Shown: one piece after another, positions 14,311-40,688 of the stretch | How the letters are laid out: the number at the start of each line of letters is the position of its first letter | How positions within the stretch are numbered: the stretch's first letter is position 1 | Source of the DNA: Saprospiraceae bacterium | Lineage (GTDB): Bacteria > Bacteroidota > Bacteroidia > Chitinophagales > Saprospiraceae | DNA length: 57,931 nucleotides | NCBI GenBank assembly: GCA_024762995.1 | Contig: JANTGI010000005.1 | Span: 1 to 57,931 of the forward strand | Direction of reading: 5' to 3' | Notes under the pieces: model-generated | What the model saw: only the letters and a program-made list of their open reading frames with translations | What the model was told of the DNA's origin: nothing | Databases searched by the model: none | Translations under genes and position numbers: made by a program

Positions 14311-15654
14311 CTACCGAAATACCACCTTTTTCTGAAAAGAACTGGATTGGGTAGTCATCTCCAAAAAATAAAATCCTCCGGGCACATCGGTCACATCAAT
14401 TTCTAAGAAATAAATATGGTCATAGCTTTTTTCAAAAGCCGTATGCCCATTTATATCTGTCAATTTGACGTATATAGGCCCATCAATAATCGTAGGATTG
14501 GACACATAAAACTGATTGGCTGCCGGCACAGGAAAGACCTCTATATCATCCAAAACGTGCTCTTCGTCACTCGTCCATTTTACCGTCAAGTCTATCTCAT
14601 CCTGATTCACTACACACGGCTGGGAAAGCAACTGGACATAATTCAAATTATCCGTGAGCGCCAATTTGACATTGGCATAACTATGCATGACATTGGCATA
14701 GACAATTTCAGGAAAATTTTGCTGTAAAGCATCAAAAAACTGCATATAATCATAGTCCCCATCTGCCGTCTCCGGTGTCGGCCCACACAGGGTCAATGCC
14801 ATAGGCTTATTGAAACGCTTTAAATCCAAAAAGTCCCGAAAGTCCTTAATCTCCAAATTATCATTAAATAGCGTAATCCCCACAATATCAACGTATTCTT
14901 CGCCCGGAAAATAGGTGTCTCCCCGTAGCCAAAACGAAGGCCTATTGGTCAATATCTTCGATTGGTTAATAGAGAAAACCCAAAGCAGATTATTCAGTTT
15001 CTTCACATTTGTCAAATAATCATAGGTGAACTGCCACAAATGATGAAAATCTTCAGGCGCACGCAACGAATCCGCCCCCCACCAAAACCAATCGCCATTC
15101 ATATCCGAAAATGGTCGCCATAATACCGTTATATCACGTTCTTGAAATTGTCCCAATACATCGGCTATATCGTCCAATTCTGCCAACCACTTGTCATGAA
15201 GAGTATCTGTCGGATCCATCAATCGCTTAAAATCTCGCTTTTGATCGTCCGCATAATAAGTGCCTGTCCATGGATCCAGGCACTGCCATGACAAGGTGAC
15301 CATCCCGCCATGATCTATATGATCCTTAAACAAATCGCCTAACAAATCCACATCCAGCGGCCCCTCAAGCCCTAGGTCTCCACCGATGATCGCCGGTATA
15401 TGGCCGGTCTCATTCTTCAACTTCACGATATACTCGTCATAATAATCCAAAATTTGGTTTTTGTGACCCAGATTTTGACCGATTAACACACAGTTCTTCG
15501 GACTCTTTTTGTAATTATAGAGATAATCATATTGCCGCAAAGCGGAAGTAGTCGCCAATTTATTGGATGGTGATTGCCCCCAAGCGACAAGACTCAAACT
15601 AAGAAAGCCCGCTAATACGAAGATGCTCCGCTTCATGTATTTATGTAAATCCAT
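14311..15654 (-). CDS. GH26-like secreted protein with T9SS type-A sorting domain; catalytic glutamates missing
   Basis: A 447-residue exported protein (signal peptide to about residue 27; an in-frame ATG at 15636 would give an equally good signal). Residues about 35-345 follow glycoside hydrolase family 26, the beta-mannanase fold: GGMVTLSW (116-123) and the hallmark WRPFSDMNGDWFWWG (179-193). Family members read RPxHE-NG there, with Glu as acid/base. Here His is Ser183 and Glu is Asp184. The nucleophile region (K-P-x-A-L-T-E) reads KPMALTLCG (283-291), with Leu289 in place of Glu. Residues about 371-447 are a type-A secretion tail. It is therefore probably a non-hydrolytic, perhaps glycan-binding, relative. 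No partner gene is adjacent. Confidence 0.85.
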   Translation of the reverse strand: MDLHKYMKRSIFVLAGFLSLSLVAWGQSPSNKLATTSALRQYDYLYNYKKSPKNCVLIGQNLGHKNQILDYYDEYIVKLKNETGHIPAIIGGDLGLEGPLDVDLLGDLFKDHIDHGGMVTLSWQCLDPWTGTYYADDQKRDFKRLMDPTDTLHDKWLAELDDIADVLGQFQERDITVLWRPFSDMNGDWFWWGADSLRAPEDFHHLWQFTYDYLTNVKKLNNLLWVFSINQSKILTNRPSFWLRGDTYFPGEEYVDIVGITLFNDNLEIKDFRDFLDLKRFNKPMALTLCGPTPETADGDYDYMQFFDALQQNFPEIVYANVMHSYANVKLALTDNLNYVQLLSQPCVVNQDEIDLTVKWTSDEEHVLDDIEVFPVPAANQFYVSNPTIIDGPIYVKLTDINGHTAFEKSYDHIYFLEIDVTDVPGGFYFLEMTTQSSSFQKKVVFR

Positions 15655-15970: not shown

Positions 15971-16690
15971 ATGACCAATTCTGCATTCATTGGGCAGCGG
16001 GTATTAGATGTCTTTAGGTTTCTACCCAAAAGATTGCGTAGGCTCTTTTATCATTTTTGGCTAAAACGATATGGCCACAGGTTGGCCAACCAAATCTCTC
16101 ACCCCGGTCATATCACCATGCTCTGGATAATAGAACTGGGTATTTTAATAATTGAAATCTTTGGTATTGGGGAATCATACGACATCCTTACCACTATTTT
16201 CAAGCGAAGCACCCGCTCCTTGTCTCCCCGTCAGCTAGAAATTGCGACCGGATTTTATGGCGATGCCCCCATTTTACGCAAGGTACGGATAGATGAACAA
16301 GCCAAAATCGGAATGGGTAAAATGGCTACGGCCTATGTTTCTTGCTTCACCATCAACACGGGCGCGCCCATTGAAGACGATGTGCTTATCCACGAACTCG
16401 TCCACATCATCCAATACAAAAAGTATGGGATGCGCTACATGACCCGAGCATTGTATGGACAAAATTGGGGCGGCGGATACAATTATGGCGGAACCGAAGG
16501 GCTCAAAAATTGGCAACAAGCAGATAAAGAATTATACTTTTTTAATCCCGAACAAGAAGCCGAATTTATCACTGATTTGTTTCTGCTTTCGCAAAAAAGA
16601 CCTACGGGGTGGTTTGGGCGAAACCTGCCCCAATCTATACAAACATCCTTAACACCTAGAAAAATTTTGGGCTCTGAGCATTTTGTCTAA
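15971..16690 (+). CDS. Putative membrane-associated zinc peptidase-like protein (HELVH)
   Basis: A 239-residue protein I cannot assign to a named family. It has a basic N-terminus, one hydrophobic segment (about 47-66, HITMLWIIELGILIIEIFGI) and the motif HELVH at 141-145, the HExxH signature of zinc metallopeptidases. Downstream E195-x-x-E198 (NPEQEAEF) could supply the third ligand, as in gluzincin-like folds. The start at 15971 is preceded by GGAAGAA at a suitable distance. A YfiT-like gene follows after 18 bases, suggesting cotranscription. The substrate is unknown, and a non-proteolytic metal-binding role is possible. Confidence 0.75.
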   Translation: MTNSAFIGQRVLDVFRFLPKRLRRLFYHFWLKRYGHRLANQISHPGHITMLWIIELGILIIEIFGIGESYDILTTIFKRSTRSLSPRQLEIATGFYGDAPILRKVRIDEQAKIGMGKMATAYVSCFTINTGAPIEDDVLIHELVHIIQYKKYGMRYMTRALYGQNWGGGYNYGGTEGLKNWQQADKELYFFNPEQEAEFITDLFLLSQKRPTGWFGRNLPQSIQTSLTPRKILGSEHFV

Positions 16691-26684: not shown

Positions 26685-27851
26685 ATGAGAATTGCCATCA
26701 ACGCCCGTTTCTTACATCCCGACAAAATGGAAGGCATCGGTCGATATTCCTACGAGACCATACGCCGCATCGTGGACAACCATCCCGAAGATACTTTTCT
26801 ATTGTTGACGGACAATAATGGCGCGCAGGCTTTTACCTTTCCGGACAATGTGACCGTCAAAAAAATCGGTCTTTTGCCCGCAAGGCATCCTTTGTTGTTT
26901 TTGCTTTGGTTTGAATTTTCCGTAAGGAAGGCTTTAAGAAAATTTGGGGCAGATATTTTTTACTCGCCCGATGGATTTATTCCGACCTTAAAGACCGTAC
27001 CTTGTGTGCCGGTCATCCATGACATCGCTTGGAAGCATTTTCCCAAACACGTCAAGTTGAGGGACAGGCTTTATTACCGCTGGATGACCCCTAGATTTTG
27101 CCGAAAGGCCGCCAAAATCATTACGGTCTCCAAATTCTCCAAGCTGGATTTGATGAAATTCTACCATCTGCCGGCTTCCAAAATTATCGTTACCGGAAAT
27201 GCCTGCTCCCCCCAATTTAAGCCCATCGACGAAATCCAACAGATGCAAATTCGTCGGCAATATACTGACCAAAAAGACTATTTTTTCTACGTGGGCGCCT
27301 TGCATCCCCGCAAAAACATCGTGAATCTCATCAAAGCTTTTGACCTTTTTAAGCAGGAAACCGGCTCGAATATGAAGCTGCTCCTTGCCGGCCGGTTGGC
27401 ATGGAAAACCAAGTCTTTTCAAAAAACCACCGCAACCGCTTCCGCAAAAGAAGACATTGTCCAACTCGGTTTTGTACCAAATGAAGATTTGCCTTTGCTG
27501 ATGGGTTCGGCCTTTGCGTTGACGTATGTGTCTCTATTTGAAGGCTTTGGAGTGCCGCTCTTGGAGGCGATGGCTTCGGATGTGCCGGTGATTACGTCCA
27601 CCGTTTCTTCGCTTCCGGAAGTCGCCGGTGATGCGGCCCTTACGGTAAATCCCCACGACCCTAAGGCCATTGCGCAAGCCATGATTACCTTGCGAAATGA
27701 TTTTGATTTGTACAATGACTTGGTCGCTAAAGGTCGGGAACGGGTGAAGAAATTTAATTGGGATGATTATGCGGAGACGGTGTATGAAGTTCTTGCGAAA
27801 AACAATCAGACGCAATTTAAAGGAGAATTACCGGATGAGATTTTAAGGTAG
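26685..27851 (+). CDS. GT4-family glycosyltransferase
   Basis: A 388-residue GT-B fold enzyme of the GT4 (glycosyl transferase group 1) family. It has an N-terminal acceptor domain starting MRIAINARFL and a glycine-rich GIGRYSYETIRRI. The C-terminal donor domain contains YVGALHPRKNI and the family hallmark EGFGVPLLEAMASDVPVI, whose two Glu residues bind the nucleotide-sugar. It likely adds a sugar to a lipid-linked surface glycan or to LPS; donor and acceptor cannot be told. It is a single gene with a probably leaderless mRNA and no clear terminator before the helicase gene. Confidence 0.93.
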   Translation: MRIAINARFLHPDKMEGIGRYSYETIRRIVDNHPEDTFLLLTDNNGAQAFTFPDNVTVKKIGLLPARHPLLFLLWFEFSVRKALRKFGADIFYSPDGFIPTLKTVPCVPVIHDIAWKHFPKHVKLRDRLYYRWMTPRFCRKAAKIITVSKFSKLDLMKFYHLPASKIIVTGNACSPQFKPIDEIQQMQIRRQYTDQKDYFFYVGALHPRKNIVNLIKAFDLFKQETGSNMKLLLAGRLAWKTKSFQKTTATASAKEDIVQLGFVPNEDLPLLMGSAFALTYVSLFEGFGVPLLEAMASDVPVITSTVSSLPEVAGDAALTVNPHDPKAIAQAMITLRNDFDLYNDLVAKGRERVKKFNWDDYAETVYEVLAKNNQTQFKGELPDEILR

Positions 27852-33807: not shown

Positions 33808-36800
33808 TCACTTCAAAACGGTAATATTTCCTTTCTTAAAGTATTTTTCACCGTTGTCACATTTTACACGCAAGTAGAATCCATAGACATCCGGCGCCAC
33901 CGGATCTCCATTAAATGTACCATCCCACCCATAACTTTGGTCACGAGTTTCAAAGACTTGCTGTCCCCATCTATTGTAGATAGATAAGTGTATTTCACTC
34001 AAGTTCAATCCACGAAGATATAACACTTCATTGTCTCCATCTCCATTAGGAGAGAAGGCATTCGGCAGGTAAATATAGGGCTCACCACACTCTGTATTTT
34101 TTACTTCAATGGTTATGGATCTTTCAGCTGTACACCCGTTATCATCAGTCACGGTCACTGTATAAGTCGTTGTTTCTTCTGGCGATGCTTTCGGATTTGC
34201 CGAAAAAATATCATCTAAAGAGCCATCATCAGGGCTCCACAAATAACTGATAAAGCCTTCTGTTGCGGACAATTTGGTGGATTGCGACCTATAAATGGAC
34301 ATTTCACTGGCGGTAACTTCCGCAACCACTTCCACAACATCTACCTGCGCCGTATCTGTAGCGCTACATCCATCTGCATTGGTCACCACAGCCACATAAG
34401 TGCCCGAATGGGTAGGATTAACCACCAACGGGCTTCCGGTCCCAATTAGAGTATTGTCTAAATACCATTGTGTATGGTCATCACTGTGTAAGCCATTAAT
34501 TTCCAAAGCGGCATCTTCTCCCATACATAGGGTAAAATTATTTTGAGCCACTGCCATGGTCACCGGATTCTGGGCGACAACAACCGTATCTATCATTTGG
34601 CAACCGGCTGCATTGGTGGATAAGGCATAATAAGTACCCGGCAATACCATTAAAGACGAAGAATTACTAATGGATGTCGTCAGAGCCGGATCATCATACC
34701 AATTAATAGAATCACCGGTATGAACCGCACTAATGGGGACTTGAGTTTGATTGTCACATACCGTCGTATCACCGGTTGCCTGAACGGTAACCGGAGCGAC
34801 TACAACTTTCACCATTTTTGTAACCATACAAGAATCCGGAGCATTCACATTCACAATATCTACGGTATAGGTGGTTGTGGTACTTGGATTAGCTAATGGA
34901 TTGACGCTTGTCGGATCATCCAAGCCGATGGCCGGAGACCAAGTATATTGATAATCCGTATTCCCACTAGGATTCAAACTCACTCCTTCCTGACCACATA
35001 TCAACAGAGAATCGGGTATATGTACGTTGATAGAATCCATGGGTATTTGTTTTTCCAGCGAAAGCAAACAACCATCCGGAAATTCAATGGTCAATCTGGC
35101 CATAAAATCTGAATTATTGACAAGGCCGGCAGGAATCGTGGGATTTTGGGTCTTATACTCTGTCGGAAACTCCCACGTCCATTCTGATATAGGGTGCGGA
35201 GCGGTTGATAAATCTTTAAAAGTGATGCTATCCACACAACCCACAAAGCTAAAATCGAAATCAACCTTCGCTTCCTGCCCTACTTCTACATTATAAGGGA
35301 TTGGATTTGCGCAAGTGGTATCATCCGGGATTAATAAGACTTCATAATTACCCATACCCAAAGAATCAAAATCAAAACTAGCGTTAGAATCCGAACTCAT
35401 TGTACCATCCGGAAACTGCCAAGAATAATTGGCCGCATTTGGGTTTGTATTCTCAAAATCGACCTTAAACCCTTCACACTGACGATAAGAAAGCAAGCTT
35501 TGGTCTATGACCAAGGCAGCGGGATCACTGACACCTAAATCGACTGTTTGGGTAACTACACAGCCCGAAGCATTCGTCATCTCCACTTGTAGGGTATGAT
35601 TGCCGGCCAAATTAGTATTGAGCACCGGATTAGGGGTATTAGCCCCTGATTGAATAAGACTAGCCGGAGTCCAAGAATAATCAATGGCACTACCGTTATT
35701 ATTTTGGATGGCAATTTGAAGGCTATCCCCCATACAGGCAGACTGCGCCCCCGGAACCGCGACATCTATCACATCAAAATCGACCGGTTTTGTCACAGAA
35801 GACGTACAACCATTACCATATTCAATCGTCAAAGTGACTTCGTTTGGATTGGTAACAAACTGAGCGGTTTCCTGCTGCTGGTTGCCGGAAAAACTCCAAT
35901 TATAAGCGGTAACATCCGGACTGTTCGGATACCCCGAAAATTGAATACTTAACTCATTATTGGTACATCCTAATAGTGCAAAATCAAAGTCCGCCACCAT
36001 AGAGTTTTGATTAATATTTGCCGTATAAGTAGCCGTACAACCACCCGCATCCGTAGCCGTCACGGAATACGTGCCGGGCGCCAAACCACTTAAATCTTCC
36101 GTATGCGGATCAACAAATCCTGCAGGGCCAGTCCAATTATAAGTAACCGGCCCGACTACTGTGGTCGGCATCAAGTCAATACTTCCTCCATTTCCATTAC
36201 AATCAGCATCCACGACATTCGCATTTAACTCAAATCCCGGGGAAACCGTCACCCAATTATCATGTGGACAATGATTTGCATTCATCACACACAAATACAT
36301 TGTACCGGGCTCCGTAAATGTATAGAATGAATCAGTAGAGACAAGTTGTCCGTTATTAATCCACATAAACATATAAGGCTCCACGCCACCGGTAGCGATA
36401 GCTGTTGCCGTTGCCGGAACGCCACAAGTTGGGTCTTTGATAATTGTTACATCCGTTGCAGGTGGATCCACAATGGTCCCCGAAGCGGATGCAGTGCATC
36501 CCGTACCATCAATGACCGTTACAGAATAATCTCCTGCACTTAAGCCGGAAACATACACATCCGACGAACCTGTACTCCATAAAAAAGTATAAGGTTGGTG
36601 CCCACCTGTGGCACTTACGACCCCAACTCCATCATTGTAACCATTACAAGTAATATCACTCAACTCTAAGTTTACGCCCAACGGATTATTGACTGAACCG
36701 GCAGCGTTAGACTGGCAACCAAAAACATCTGTGACCGTCACAGACAAACTTGATGTATTGGGATTCTGAATAATCTGAGTAGATTCTCCCGTATTCCAAG

Positions 36801-37209
36801 CATAAGAATAGCCGGGCGTACCCCCTACCGTATAGGCAGCATAGGTATCAGAAGTACAAGGATCACCAACCAATTGGACATTGGTCACAATGGGATCCGG
36901 CTGTTGCAAAGTAAAAGACTCTGTTGCAGTCAATCCGTTTGCATCTGTCACTGTTACAGAATAATCCCCACCGGTCAAACTCCAAGCGGTATGCCCACCT
37001 GCCGTTGCCACACTCCACTGATACACGTAAGGCTCTTGCCCCCCGGTGGCCGTAGCGGTGGCACCACCATTGGTGTAGCCATTACAAGTTGGTTTTTGTA
37101 AGTCAAGACTAATCTGAATTTGGGCAGATAATTTTACTCCCGTTAAAACTAGGGCCAAGCTAAAGCCTAAGCTCCATAACTTTTGGGTAAATGATGTAAA
37201 ATTGTTCAT
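33808..37209 (-). CDS. SprB-like adhesin with Ig-like repeats and T9SS type-B sorting domain
   Basis: A 1133-residue secreted protein: signal peptide to about residue 30 (ending KLSAQ), then three SprB-type repeats (CNGYTNGGATATATGGQEPY and close variants, about 38-270). Further PKD/Ig-like modules follow, many with a conserved Cys and W-x-P. The C-terminal type-B sorting domain spans about 1045-1133 (YLPNAFSPNGDGDNE, IYNRWGQQVFE, WDGTFNG). SprB repeats occur in mobile gliding adhesins. It is the last gene of a three-gene operon with ompA/PD40 and porP (gaps 20 and 24 bases), the typical pairing of type-B cargo with PorP-like anchors. Confidence 0.9.
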   Translation of the reverse strand: MNNFTSFTQKLWSLGFSLALVLTGVKLSAQIQISLDLQKPTCNGYTNGGATATATGGQEPYVYQWSVATAGGHTAWSLTGGDYSVTVTDANGLTATESFTLQQPDPIVTNVQLVGDPCTSDTYAAYTVGGTPGYSYAWNTGESTQIIQNPNTSSLSVTVTDVFGCQSNAAGSVNNPLGVNLELSDITCNGYNDGVGVVSATGGHQPYTFLWSTGSSDVYVSGLSAGDYSVTVIDGTGCTASASGTIVDPPATDVTIIKDPTCGVPATATAIATGGVEPYMFMWINNGQLVSTDSFYTFTEPGTMYLCVMNANHCPHDNWVTVSPGFELNANVVDADCNGNGGSIDLMPTTVVGPVTYNWTGPAGFVDPHTEDLSGLAPGTYSVTATDAGGCTATYTANINQNSMVADFDFALLGCTNNELSIQFSGYPNSPDVTAYNWSFSGNQQQETAQFVTNPNEVTLTIEYGNGCTSSVTKPVDFDVIDVAVPGAQSACMGDSLQIAIQNNNGSAIDYSWTPASLIQSGANTPNPVLNTNLAGNHTLQVEMTNASGCVVTQTVDLGVSDPAALVIDQSLLSYRQCEGFKVDFENTNPNAANYSWQFPDGTMSSDSNASFDFDSLGMGNYEVLLIPDDTTCANPIPYNVEVGQEAKVDFDFSFVGCVDSITFKDLSTAPHPISEWTWEFPTEYKTQNPTIPAGLVNNSDFMARLTIEFPDGCLLSLEKQIPMDSINVHIPDSLLICGQEGVSLNPSGNTDYQYTWSPAIGLDDPTSVNPLANPSTTTTYTVDIVNVNAPDSCMVTKMVKVVVAPVTVQATGDTTVCDNQTQVPISAVHTGDSINWYDDPALTTSISNSSSLMVLPGTYYALSTNAAGCQMIDTVVVAQNPVTMAVAQNNFTLCMGEDAALEINGLHSDDHTQWYLDNTLIGTGSPLVVNPTHSGTYVAVVTNADGCSATDTAQVDVVEVVAEVTASEMSIYRSQSTKLSATEGFISYLWSPDDGSLDDIFSANPKASPEETTTYTVTVTDDNGCTAERSITIEVKNTECGEPYIYLPNAFSPNGDGDNEVLYLRGLNLSEIHLSIYNRWGQQVFETRDQSYGWDGTFNGDPVAPDVYGFYLRVKCDNGEKYFKKGNITVLK

Positions 37210-37229
37210 AGTACTCTGTTTATTTGTTC

Positions 37230-39647
37230 TTAAAGTGTCTTGTTAGGGGAGGACTTTAACTGTAATATTTCAACCCTTCTTTCCCGAGCTGCTTTAGGAT
37301 TATATACAGACGCTTGTCTGTTTTTCGGTGAATCACTCACATCCGGAGCAGCCTTTGATTCGCCGTAAGGCTTAATGACTACTTGTATTCTTCCACTTTC
37401 AAAATAAGGTCTCAAGTATCCATTATCTTGCTCTTTCAAAAACTTCTCTACATTATCTATTCTTCGTTTTGTCAAACTCACATTATATTCTTCTGTGGCC
37501 AAAGGGCTGGCAAACCCCTTGATGATGATTTTTACATCTCTATTTCTAGCCATATATTTTTTTAGCCTTTCGGCAAAACGCTTCAAACTCTCATATCCTC
37601 TAGTCACTTCTTGCTCAAAAAACCTTTTAACTTCATCCTTAGCGGCTTGTTGTTTGGCTGGCTCAAAGCCTTTGGAATATTCTCTCATATACAAAGACTT
37701 TAACTCCATATATCTTCTATAGGAAGTCTCATAGCTCGAAGTAGCAAATTCACTAGTGGTCCTTGGGTTGGGTTCGTCATTATGAAAATAAACAGGTAAG
37801 GTAGCATAAATACCTTCATTCTTTTCCAGATACAGATTTTTGGTTATTTTTTTACTTTCAAAAGGAAGGTTTTTGGTGGTAAAGCGTACCGTATCCGTAG
37901 AAAAACCTTCTCGATAACCAATCAGCATGTAATCCTTACCAAAATCAATGGCAAAAGGAAATTCATTACTGGCATCATTCACGTGTTGTTCTTGACGATT
38001 ATTGCTTAAATCAATCAATCGTACACCCGCTTTGGGGAGTGGTGTCTGTGTTATTTTGTCAAAGGTCAAGGCCAGCAACTCTAATTTGGGCTCCAACAAC
38101 AAATCTTTCTCTATAACTTCTGAGTTTTGGGCCTTTATGGTAGAGACCAAGACGGTATCGCCTATATAACCATCGCGCAAACCAATGACTTGATACTCTT
38201 TGCCAAGCTCTAACGGAAAGAAGTATCTACTTCCGTCATGCTGAATGCTCGCCGTATCCACAGTCCCATCCGTTAAATTCATTAATCGGACTTGAACTCC
38301 GCTTAATAACGCCCGGTTGAGCTTGTTTAAAGTATTGACAATCAAGCGAATATTAACCGGAATGTCCAACTCATAAATATCATTACAACACGTGCCGGTT
38401 TCATCATCTATCAGAGTAGAACTAGGGCGATTGGAAGCCAACCAAGCCTTACGTCCATCCTTAGAAAGGACATAATAGGTATCGTTATAACTGGAATTAG
38501 TTGGTTTTTTCAGATTCTCCGCTTCTCCCCAACCGGTCCCTTTTTTCTCGACTTTAAAGATATCAAATAAGCCATATCCGGGTAGTCCATTAGAGCTAAA
38601 GTAAAGGGTTTTTGTGTTTGAATCATAAAAAGGCGTGACTTCTTCATGTGCGGTATTCGCCTGTTTCAGATTTTCCGGCTCACCAAAACTATTTTCGCCT
38701 GTCATTGGGGCTCTCCAGATATCCATACTTCCTATGCCGCCAGGGCGATTAGAAGCAAAATATAAAAAAGCTTGTCCATCTTCCGTCGCAATGGAAGGGT
38801 GAGTTACATTCGCATTTGGTGTATTAATGGTGTCGGACAATTTTTGGGCCTGTCCCCAACTTCCATCCGATTGCTTTTCAGAAAAATAAATCTGACAATG
38901 AATCTGTCCGACTTTATCATAATCACAAATAGTAAAATAACCGACTGAATGATCTTCATTAAAATTCATATTCCCGACATGCTTATCGGGAGCTAAGTTA
39001 AAGGGAGCATCCAGTTTTACACCGTCTTCCCCATCTTTAGCGACCATTATTTTATTAAAGTAACGCTTAGGCTTAGCTCGGTCTTTTTCATACAAAAATC
39101 GCAATGAGGTATAATACACCTTATCCCCGTCTCTAGCATACCCAAAGTCAGAAGAAGACGAATTAATTCTATCTCCCAAATTAGTTACCTTTATTTCTTC
39201 TTCAAATAAAGGATTCGCTTTAGCCCAATCGTTATGTTCTAGATATAATTCGGCAATATGATATAAGGTATCGGCACTGGTGCGATGCTCCATCCACTGT
39301 TTATAATGCGCTTCTGCTTCATCATATTTACCTTGACTATTTTCGGAGTAACCCAACCAAAACAAGGCGTTTGATTGATAGGTAGAATCCAAAGGAATCG
39401 CCAATTCATAGTATTTTTCCGCAATGGCAAAAGCCGTAAATTTTCTAGCGGCATCAGCGGCCCCCAAAATATAGGAGAGCTTGGTACTATCCATTTCGAC
39501 GGCTTTCTGATAATTTCGCATTGCCCCAAAGTAATCATTCTTCTCAAGGTACTTTTCAGCGGTCTTGGCGTAAGAGCGTTTGGTCTGCCCAAAAGCCAAG
39601 GCAGGAAGGAGGAGCAAGAATAAAAGACTTGTAATCGATTGTTTCAT
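37230..39647 (-). CDS. OmpA-family protein with TPR and PD40 propeller (PorE-like)
   Basis: An 805-residue periplasmic/outer-membrane protein. Signal peptide MKQSITSLLFLLLLPALAFGQ; TPR units (about 25-150, YLEKNDYFGAMRNYQKAVEMD); a WD40-like PD40 propeller (about 190-430, FASNRPGGIGSMDIW and FSSNGLPGYGLFDIF blades). Two carboxypeptidase-regulatory-like segments (about 430-610) precede a C-terminal OmpA domain (about 690-795, IIIKGFASPLATEEYNVSLTKRRI) for peptidoglycan contact. This layout is that of T9SS-associated PorE/OmpA proteins. It lies between porP and the SprB-like adhesin in one operon, suggesting it anchors or controls that adhesin's secretion complex. Confidence 0.9.
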   Translation of the reverse strand: MKQSITSLLFLLLLPALAFGQTKRSYAKTAEKYLEKNDYFGAMRNYQKAVEMDSTKLSYILGAADAARKFTAFAIAEKYYELAIPLDSTYQSNALFWLGYSENSQGKYDEAEAHYKQWMEHRTSADTLYHIAELYLEHNDWAKANPLFEEEIKVTNLGDRINSSSSDFGYARDGDKVYYTSLRFLYEKDRAKPKRYFNKIMVAKDGEDGVKLDAPFNLAPDKHVGNMNFNEDHSVGYFTICDYDKVGQIHCQIYFSEKQSDGSWGQAQKLSDTINTPNANVTHPSIATEDGQAFLYFASNRPGGIGSMDIWRAPMTGENSFGEPENLKQANTAHEEVTPFYDSNTKTLYFSSNGLPGYGLFDIFKVEKKGTGWGEAENLKKPTNSSYNDTYYVLSKDGRKAWLASNRPSSTLIDDETGTCCNDIYELDIPVNIRLIVNTLNKLNRALLSGVQVRLMNLTDGTVDTASIQHDGSRYFFPLELGKEYQVIGLRDGYIGDTVLVSTIKAQNSEVIEKDLLLEPKLELLALTFDKITQTPLPKAGVRLIDLSNNRQEQHVNDASNEFPFAIDFGKDYMLIGYREGFSTDTVRFTTKNLPFESKKITKNLYLEKNEGIYATLPVYFHNDEPNPRTTSEFATSSYETSYRRYMELKSLYMREYSKGFEPAKQQAAKDEVKRFFEQEVTRGYESLKRFAERLKKYMARNRDVKIIIKGFASPLATEEYNVSLTKRRIDNVEKFLKEQDNGYLRPYFESGRIQVVIKPYGESKAAPDVSDSPKNRQASVYNPKAARERRVEILQLKSSPNKTL

Positions 39648-39671
39648 CTCAATTTTTGTTTGCGCAAAAGG

Positions 39672-40688
39672 TTAGAGGTAAGGTGGGCAAATTTTACTTT
39701 CAACCGGCTCCGGTTTTTTCACAACATAAATCACGGTAAATTCGGGGCCACCGTTACTTGTTGATGCATTAGTAAAAGCAGAGACATTGGCATCATAGCT
39801 CAATCCAAACTGCCACTGGTTATACATCACATAAAACGTCGGAATAAGGGCATCACCCAGCCTTGCGGCAAAACCCGGCTCCAAAACTAGATGGTTTCCC
39901 GGTTTGTCACTCAGATGTATTCTAGTAGAACCGGACAAAACCGTCTCTTCGTGCGGATATTGCATCTGCTGATTCACAGCTAAGACCAGGTCGAAGTTTT
40001 TAGACACCTGAGCAGCTCCATGTGCATACAAAGAGACTCGACCATATAAATCTACATTTTGTAAATCTTCAAAACTAGAATTCGGCTTATTCAGATTAAA
40101 ATAAGCCCCACCAAAGTTCAATCTGGTACGATTAGATTTAGAGAGATTATAATTTAAGCCGGCTGTAAAATTGGGGAAAAATTTATTCGTTTGTGAAAAA
40201 TTCTCATTATTGCTGAAGCTCGGATTGTATTTTACACCATCCCATTTGCCATCAAATCTTAAATCGTCCATTTTGAAGGCACGTTGAGTCAACCCGGCCA
40301 TCACCCCAAAGGTCAGATACTGATTTTCAAACAATCGGCGGGTATAACTCCCCACTAAACTGACTCTCGTAGAACTCAAACGAGAATCACCTGCTTGGTC
40401 ATGATACAGATGTACCCCACCACCAAAAAATCCATTGGGATTATATCCATCACCAAATTTCATGTCAAAGGCACCGGAAATCACCTTATAGGAGACCGGT
40501 ACGGAAGTCCATTGACTTCGATAAGCTCCCGCATACCGCATCTGACCATCTATCAGCCCGACTAAAGCCGGATTCAGATTCATCTGAGCATTATAATATT
40601 GGGAGAAATGAATATCCTGACCGTTTATTTGCGGTAAAACAAATAAAAAGGACAAAATTAATGTCGAAAGGAAAGTAGTTTTTCTCAC
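39672..40688 (-). CDS. PorP/SprF-family type IX secretion membrane protein
   Basis: A 338-residue outer-membrane barrel. After a signal peptide (to QINGQ) it opens with the family hallmark DIHFSQYYNAQMNLNPALVG (about 24-43) and continues with paired beta strands to the end. PorP/SprF proteins hold type-B T9SS cargo at the cell surface and are usually encoded beside their cargo, as here. It is the first gene of the operon, with a -7 box (40833-40840) giving a leader of about 140 bases. Confidence 0.93.
   Translation of the reverse strand: MRKTTFLSTLILSFLFVLPQINGQDIHFSQYYNAQMNLNPALVGLIDGQMRYAGAYRSQWTSVPVSYKVISGAFDMKFGDGYNPNGFFGGGVHLYHDQAGDSRLSSTRVSLVGSYTRRLFENQYLTFGVMAGLTQRAFKMDDLRFDGKWDGVKYNPSFSNNENFSQTNKFFPNFTAGLNYNLSKSNRTRLNFGGAYFNLNKPNSSFEDLQNVDLYGRVSLYAHGAAQVSKNFDLVLAVNQQMQYPHEETVLSGSTRIHLSDKPGNHLVLEPGFAARLGDALIPTFYVMYNQWQFGLSYDANVSAFTNASTSNGGPEFTVIYVVKKPEPVESKICPPYL

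Follow-up and report, generated by a model that had tools for sequence, protein, structure and literature searches.

What is left for a GH26 protein to do once both of its catalytic glutamates have been replaced? The question is raised by a gene of a Saprospiraceae bacterium, situated in a stretch of 57,931 nucleotides that was analysed as a whole and is referred to below as the window.

The gene and its predicted fold

The gene, referred to as pseudo-GH26, is read on the minus strand, from 15654 down to 14311, and its frame is open throughout. Its features are presented in Table 1. The protein belongs to the GH26 family, matching PF02156 with an E-value of 1.1e-42 and 147 bits, against a cut-off of 20.2. 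Its type IX secretion system (T9SS) tail passes both available cut-offs, with 30.2 bits against 27 for the Pfam model and 27.6 against 23 for TIGR04183, in accordance with the sorting tail named in the initial annotation of this DNA. The motifs and numbering given there (S183, D184, L289, Q124, SWQ and WFWWG) also agree with the sequence: in the 447-residue protein, SWQ occupies residues 122-124, PFSDMNG 181-187, WFWWG 189-193 and ALTLCG 286-291. The putative signal peptide, read by eye, consists of a hydrophobic start followed by AWGQ; all four orthologues, the window's copy included, have Q27, the residue just past the probable cleavage point. The nearest named record is an uncultured Saprospiraceae MAG (CAMZKG010000042.1), 79% identical. 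In a plasmid search 22 records matched, and among the five matches listed none covers more than 80% of the query and all are below 60% identity.

Table 1. Coordinates in the window of the pseudo-GH26 gene, its domains and replaced residues, and its divergent neighbour.
Feature	Position	Strand	Remarks
Pseudo-GH26 gene, predicted T9SS cargo	14311..15654	-	Single open frame, 447 aa; Pfam, NCBIfam, AlphaFold
Signal peptide region, residues 1-26	15577..15654	-	Start at Met1 or Met7; read by eye
GH26 (beta/alpha)8 barrel domain, residues 40-330	14665..15537	-	Pfam PF02156, 1.1e-42
Q124, replacing -1 subsite His (SWH)	15283..15285	-	Q, Q, Q, H across the four orthologues
S183-D184, replacing His-Glu (acid/base site)	15103..15108	-	D184 in 4/4; 183 is S, S, S, P
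T261 and F263, replacing +1 Asp and nucleophile-bonding Tyr	14866..14874	-	Both in 4/4
L289, replacing nucleophile Glu	14788..14790	-	L, L, L, I across the four orthologues
M323, replacing -1 subsite Trp	14686..14688	-	4/4
T9SS type A C-terminal sorting domain, residues 373-445	14320..14538	-	Pfam and TIGR04183
Divergent neighbour, 239 aa, HELVH motif	15971..16690	+	Beside pseudo-GH26 in 4/4 genomes

An AlphaFold model computed from 78 aligned rows presents a pLDDT of 90.9 and a pTM of 0.88, with low confidence (61) in the block 231-240, where some of the clade-specific residues discussed below are located. VIA-align matches it to four solved structures, namely Klebsiella KMAN (7eet) and Bacillus subtilis Man26 (2whk, 2qha and 3cbw), with Z scores from 39.6 (2whk) to 40.3 (7eet) and an rmsd of 1.9-2.1 over 309-317 residues at 26-28% identity. 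Both proteins are mannanases with both glutamates, and the alignments span the barrel only. The fold is the same, and at a Z of about 40 the model predicts an intact GH26 (beta/alpha)8 barrel. VIA-align also returns GH164, GH5 and GH39 barrels at Z 17-18, a likeness taken as the common clan fold.

Replacement of the active site

In the alignment to 3cbw and 2whk, D184 and L289 lie opposite the two catalytic glutamates of Bacillus subtilis Man26. Where an active GH26 has its acid/base glutamate, all four orthologues have Asp184, and at the nucleophile position, at the end of strand 7, all four have Leu or Ile. The accessible part of PMC6556568 describes ten cleft residues that, together with the two glutamates, are highly conserved in the GH26 mannanase branches (A and B). 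In BoMan26B numbering, these include His136, His200, Tyr263 and Trp314 at subsite -1 and Asp261 at +1; in the family columns, Q124, S183, F263, M323 and T261 stand in their place. The remaining BoMan26B residues, D101 (-2), R197 (-1), G204 and W206 (+1) and F207 (-1) in the same source, have identical counterparts in D93, R180, G187, W189 and F190. Of the twelve hallmark positions in the cleft, five are thus kept and seven have changed, namely the two Glu, the two His, the Tyr and the Trp of subsite -1, and the Asp of subsite +1; the roles were mapped by motifs and family columns rather than by coordinate superposition. The losses at 261 (Asp to Thr), 263 (Tyr to Phe) and 323 (Trp to Met) add to those noticed initially. 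Among the kept residues, D93, R180, G187 and W189 are retained in all four orthologues, and F190 is Tyr in the copies of genomes G131 and G203.

According to the accessible text of PMC6381184, the conserved Tyr hydrogen-bonds the nucleophile, and two Trp stabilise sugars at -1 and +1, the subsites being swapped relative to PMC6556568. The acid/base mutant E165Q of YpenMan26A, described in the same text, keeps about 1/360 of the rate, so a change at the acid/base position alone is no proof of inactivity. Given that the nucleophile is lost together with other cleft residues, however, hydrolysis becomes very unlikely, and on these residues hydrolase activity is very likely absent. The initial annotation had named acidic residues in both catalytic positions as an observation that would count against it: position 184 is indeed acidic, but at 289 each of the four orthologues carries Leu or Ile.

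The replaced residues are otherwise nearly universal. Among 171 aligned rows from outside the clade formed by the four orthologues, Glu occupies position 184 in 168/168 and position 289 in 166/166 of the rows with a residue there (gaps in three and five rows, respectively), against 0/4 in the clade, which upholds the loss of both catalytic glutamates initially claimed. Gaps aside, Trp323 is found in 162/163 of these rows, Tyr263 in 164/167, Asp261 in 160/167, His183 in 159/168 and His124 in 153/164. The rows derive from 151 loci picked by likeness to the query protein or to the four orthologues, with identical stretches removed; part of them was found with patterns including MNGDWFWW, which adjoins the acid/base site, so the set leans towards this motif. 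In a survey with the Pfam profile (E 1e-15) of 395 Bacteroidota genomes, 68 genomes matched, the source genome (G000) among them, and yielded 110 loci and 118 distinct sequences: Glu184 is present in 115/115 and Glu289 in 114/114 of those with a residue there (gaps in three and four). This survey applies to GH26s at or above that threshold, weaker matches, dead ones included, falling outside its reach, and it overlaps the 171 rows because both drew on one set of phylum genomes. It omits pseudo-GH26 itself and G316, while G170, G820, G584 (75001), G954, G399 and G362 (C4) had been taken earlier.

Descent, selection and probable export

The gene is present in four of the five genomes of the genus, the fifth being 79% complete, and the three other orthologues are 79, 56 and 46% identical to the window's copy. 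All four share Asp184, Leu or Ile at 289, Thr261, Phe263 and Met323. Searches of 396 genomes of the order and 395 of the phylum (overlapping sets; E 1e-20), with up to 30 matches per search taken up as loci, found no clade member beyond the genus among the matches listed; the best matches outside the genus (G114, G005, G003 and G298) retain both glutamates, and the other GH26-like genes of the source genome (L002 and L003) are remote, with both glutamates aligned.

A tree was computed from 54 hand-chosen rows of the 176 aligned, with the seven trait columns excluded. The four orthologues form a single clade in it with a support of 100/100. Their sister group comprises L009 (G038), L012 (G149) and L131 (G298), with a joint node supported at 99/90, and the next sister group consists of the ordinary GH26s L008, L010, L011 and L013. 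A single loss of both glutamates at the stem of the genus would be the simplest account of this topology. His124 must have been lost later or elsewhere, because the copy of G203 still carries His at this position.

Unlike the clade, the three sister proteins retain both glutamates, Asp261, Tyr263 and Trp323, while lacking His at 124 and 183 (RPLME; SMLP or GMLP). L009 presents an architecture similar to that of pseudo-GH26, namely GH26 followed by a T9SS tail match, which at 26.1 bits is just under the cut-off of 27. The loss of both active-site His with Glu kept was observed at L009:1492-2784 (+), at L012:1510-2490 (-) and in a 362-aa minus-strand frame of L131; judging from these residues, the activity of this group is possibly altered. 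In-frame stops (TAA; TAG) are marked around the matches of the relatives L012 and L014.

None of the four copies in the genus has an internal stop codon. In all six orthologue pairs, pS is saturated, at 0.76-0.93, against a pN of 0.14-0.36. Since pS exceeds the Jukes-Cantor limit in all six, omega is not estimable for the gene. Between the window's genome and G026, pN is 0.138, and the values of five neighbouring genes, 0.029-0.205, lie on either side of it. These values indicate, at the codon level, that the gene is under purifying selection. Sharing by four genomes, descent in one clade, a pN far below pS and the near-universal presence of the glutamates elsewhere together argue for an old, selected pseudoenzyme. 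The initial view that this is not a decaying pseudogene is thus supported by a four-genome clade, open frames and low pN.

A T9SS tail match is listed for all four orthologues at E-values up to 0.01, two of them scoring under the Pfam cut-off of 27 (L006 with 22.1 and L007 with 24.6 bits). The source genome has the corresponding machinery, including SprA (TIGR04189, 2308.7 bits) and a PorP/SprF protein at 39672-40688, and at least 150 T9SS tail matches (E up to 0.001, with 150 of 201 candidates scored), pseudo-GH26 included; hence, it would be one T9SS cargo of many. Export by Sec and T9SS with holding at the surface is likely. Elsewhere in the window, at 33808-40688, an SprB-repeat protein with a T9SS type B tail (1133 aa), an OmpA protein and the PorP/SprF protein are consecutive, the OmpA protein being CHU_0125/PorE-like, 805 aa long and below both cut-offs.

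The surroundings were characterised by a Pfam scan of 39 of the 40 window ORFs of at least 150 aa, the one left out (26988-27464) being antisense to a glycosyltransferase. No second glycoside hydrolase, SusC or SusD was found among these 39. Close to the gene are cpn60/cpn10, LptE, lumazine synthase, a TPR protein, DinB and two OmpH-like proteins, and farther off in the window are two glycosyltransferases and one esterase. The divergent HELVH neighbour has no Pfam and no NCBIfam match. It was considered as a functional partner and rejected, being widespread in the family without pseudo-GH26. Given that 52 of the 100 family genomes searched contain a match to it (E 1e-10) and that it was not found in G003, G005 and G038, where close GH26 relatives are present, its adjacency is probably plain genus gene order.

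Candidate functions of the remaining barrel

With moderate confidence, we consider the protein to be a T9SS-exported GH26 pseudoenzyme whose intact barrel acts as a non-catalytic ligand binder, the ligand being most likely a saccharide and not necessarily mannan. Export would proceed by Sec and then through the type IX secretion system, with release of the protein or its retention on the outside of the cell; there the barrel would serve as a ligand-binding domain via the former cleft. Judging from the residues kept and newly fixed there, ligand binding in the former cleft is likely.

The closest known case is GH26B of Segatella copri (PUL 7), in which, according to the accessible part of PMC12704710, both catalytic residues are changed in two MAGs and in 62 further isolate genomes and MAGs. 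The same part reports that the beta-mannoside substrates tried were not degraded and that the protein did not bind glucomannan, xyloglucan, galactomannan, mannan or mannooligosaccharides, the authors speculating that it is a binding protein (PMC12704710). Compared by description, it resembles pseudo-GH26 in that both catalytic residues are changed and the change is kept across genomes, and it is predicted to face outward, as pseudo-GH26 is probably surface-held. Unlike pseudo-GH26, it lies in a glucomannan PUL, and its predicted attachment is an outer-membrane lipid anchor or similar, a T9SS tail being unmentioned in the accessible text. Because this protein is published, a GH26 without both glutamates is already known as a kind; among the open-licence PMC papers listed, none was found to describe the present clade or any T9SS-tailed GH26 lacking the catalytic glutamates.

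Alternatively, the barrel may be kept as a stable structural or protein-binding surface module, with no ligand role for the cleft. This is unlikely in our estimation, though it is the most probable of the alternatives. It is in line with the non-binding of S. copri GH26B to the mannan, mannooligosaccharide and xyloglucan tried (PMC12704710, accessible part), with the failure to find a second glycosidase or SusC/D gene in the window, and with a conservation of the former active face that is not clearly above that of the rest of the barrel. Residues invariant in the clade account for 55/114 of the face and 73/195 of the rest (p 0.07), or 47/104 against 73/195 with catalytic columns excluded (p 0.22). 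A narrower face, one of three definitions tried, yields 29/53 against 99/256 (p 0.03). Conservation is no lower in the loops at the far end of the barrel (24/46), and in the active sister group L008/L010/L011/L013 the values are 50/114 and 82/195. Face conservation was dropped as proof of binding, since one definition in three falls below 0.05 and the far-end loops match the face in conservation. Against the structural alternative, three residues of the mannanase cleft, W189 (+1), R180 (-1) and D93 (-2), are kept in all four orthologues, and clade-specific invariant aromatics (Y134, W242 and Y326) lie on the face. These are among the 22 barrel residues that are invariant in the clade yet found in less than 5% of the other rows, twelve of which (L96, E97, Y134, A135, R140, D184, Q231, I234, W242, F263, M323 and Y326) are on the face, which itself comprises 114 of 309 residues (p 0.06).

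A lectin binding mannan at the surface would be a special case of the ligand binder preferred here, and is not counted beside it; we regard this version as rather improbable. GH26 ancestry and the part of the +1 and -2 environment that is kept agree with it, as does a GH130 match in the source genome (L303, G000:C191), in a 461-aa frame that also bears a T9SS tail match; against a cut-off of 26, its best stretch scores 22.7 bits, or 45.2 with its neighbours in the frame. The GH130 family includes mannoside enzymes. However, the -1 site is without Tyr, Trp and His183 in all four orthologues, the ORFs scanned in the window revealed no polysaccharide locus, and S. copri GH26B failed to bind any of the mannans tested, according to the accessible part of PMC12704710. 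For these reasons the mannan ligand proposed initially is not supported, and mannan is one candidate among many, not a favoured one.

Still less probable is an enzyme with changed chemistry and some other substrate, in which D184 would be the acid/base, paired with a new nucleophile or with water. All four orthologues keep the acid at 184 next to a variable 183 (S, S, S, P), a further acid, E97 in the second loop, is among the clade-specific invariant residues, and YpenMan26A E165Q retained about 1/360 of its rate (PMC6381184, accessible text). On the other hand, the nucleophile position is Leu or Ile, the nucleophile-bonding Tyr, the -1 Trp and the +1 Asp are gone, as is the -1 His in three of four, and S. 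copri GH26B degraded none of the beta-mannosides tried (PMC12704710, accessible part). A decaying pseudogene or an assembly or sequencing error, which the loss of otherwise invariant residues might bring to mind, is scarcely credible and was rejected, as four genomes share the substitutions in open frames, with pN far below the saturated pS and, towards G026, inside the range of the neighbours.

A more specific form of the preferred ligand binder can be proposed tentatively, though taken as a whole we think it doubtful: a GH26 barrel may have been converted once, at the base of the genus, into a recognition protein displayed through T9SS and standing apart from polysaccharide loci, its pocket rebuilt and made more hydrophobic (Asp to Thr, Tyr to Phe, Glu to Leu and Trp to Met) for a non-mannan ligand.

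Automatic annotation calls for caution in this family, as a profile match by itself would imply a mannanase. Dead glycosidases kept by selection indicate that a glycan-cutting barrel is open to reuse, and for GH26 the S. copri protein, as described in the accessible part of its report, is the one such case among the open-licence PMC papers found. A second clade, T9SS-tailed and with four aligned members, provides a comparison set in which the residues kept and those newly fixed may hint at ligands.
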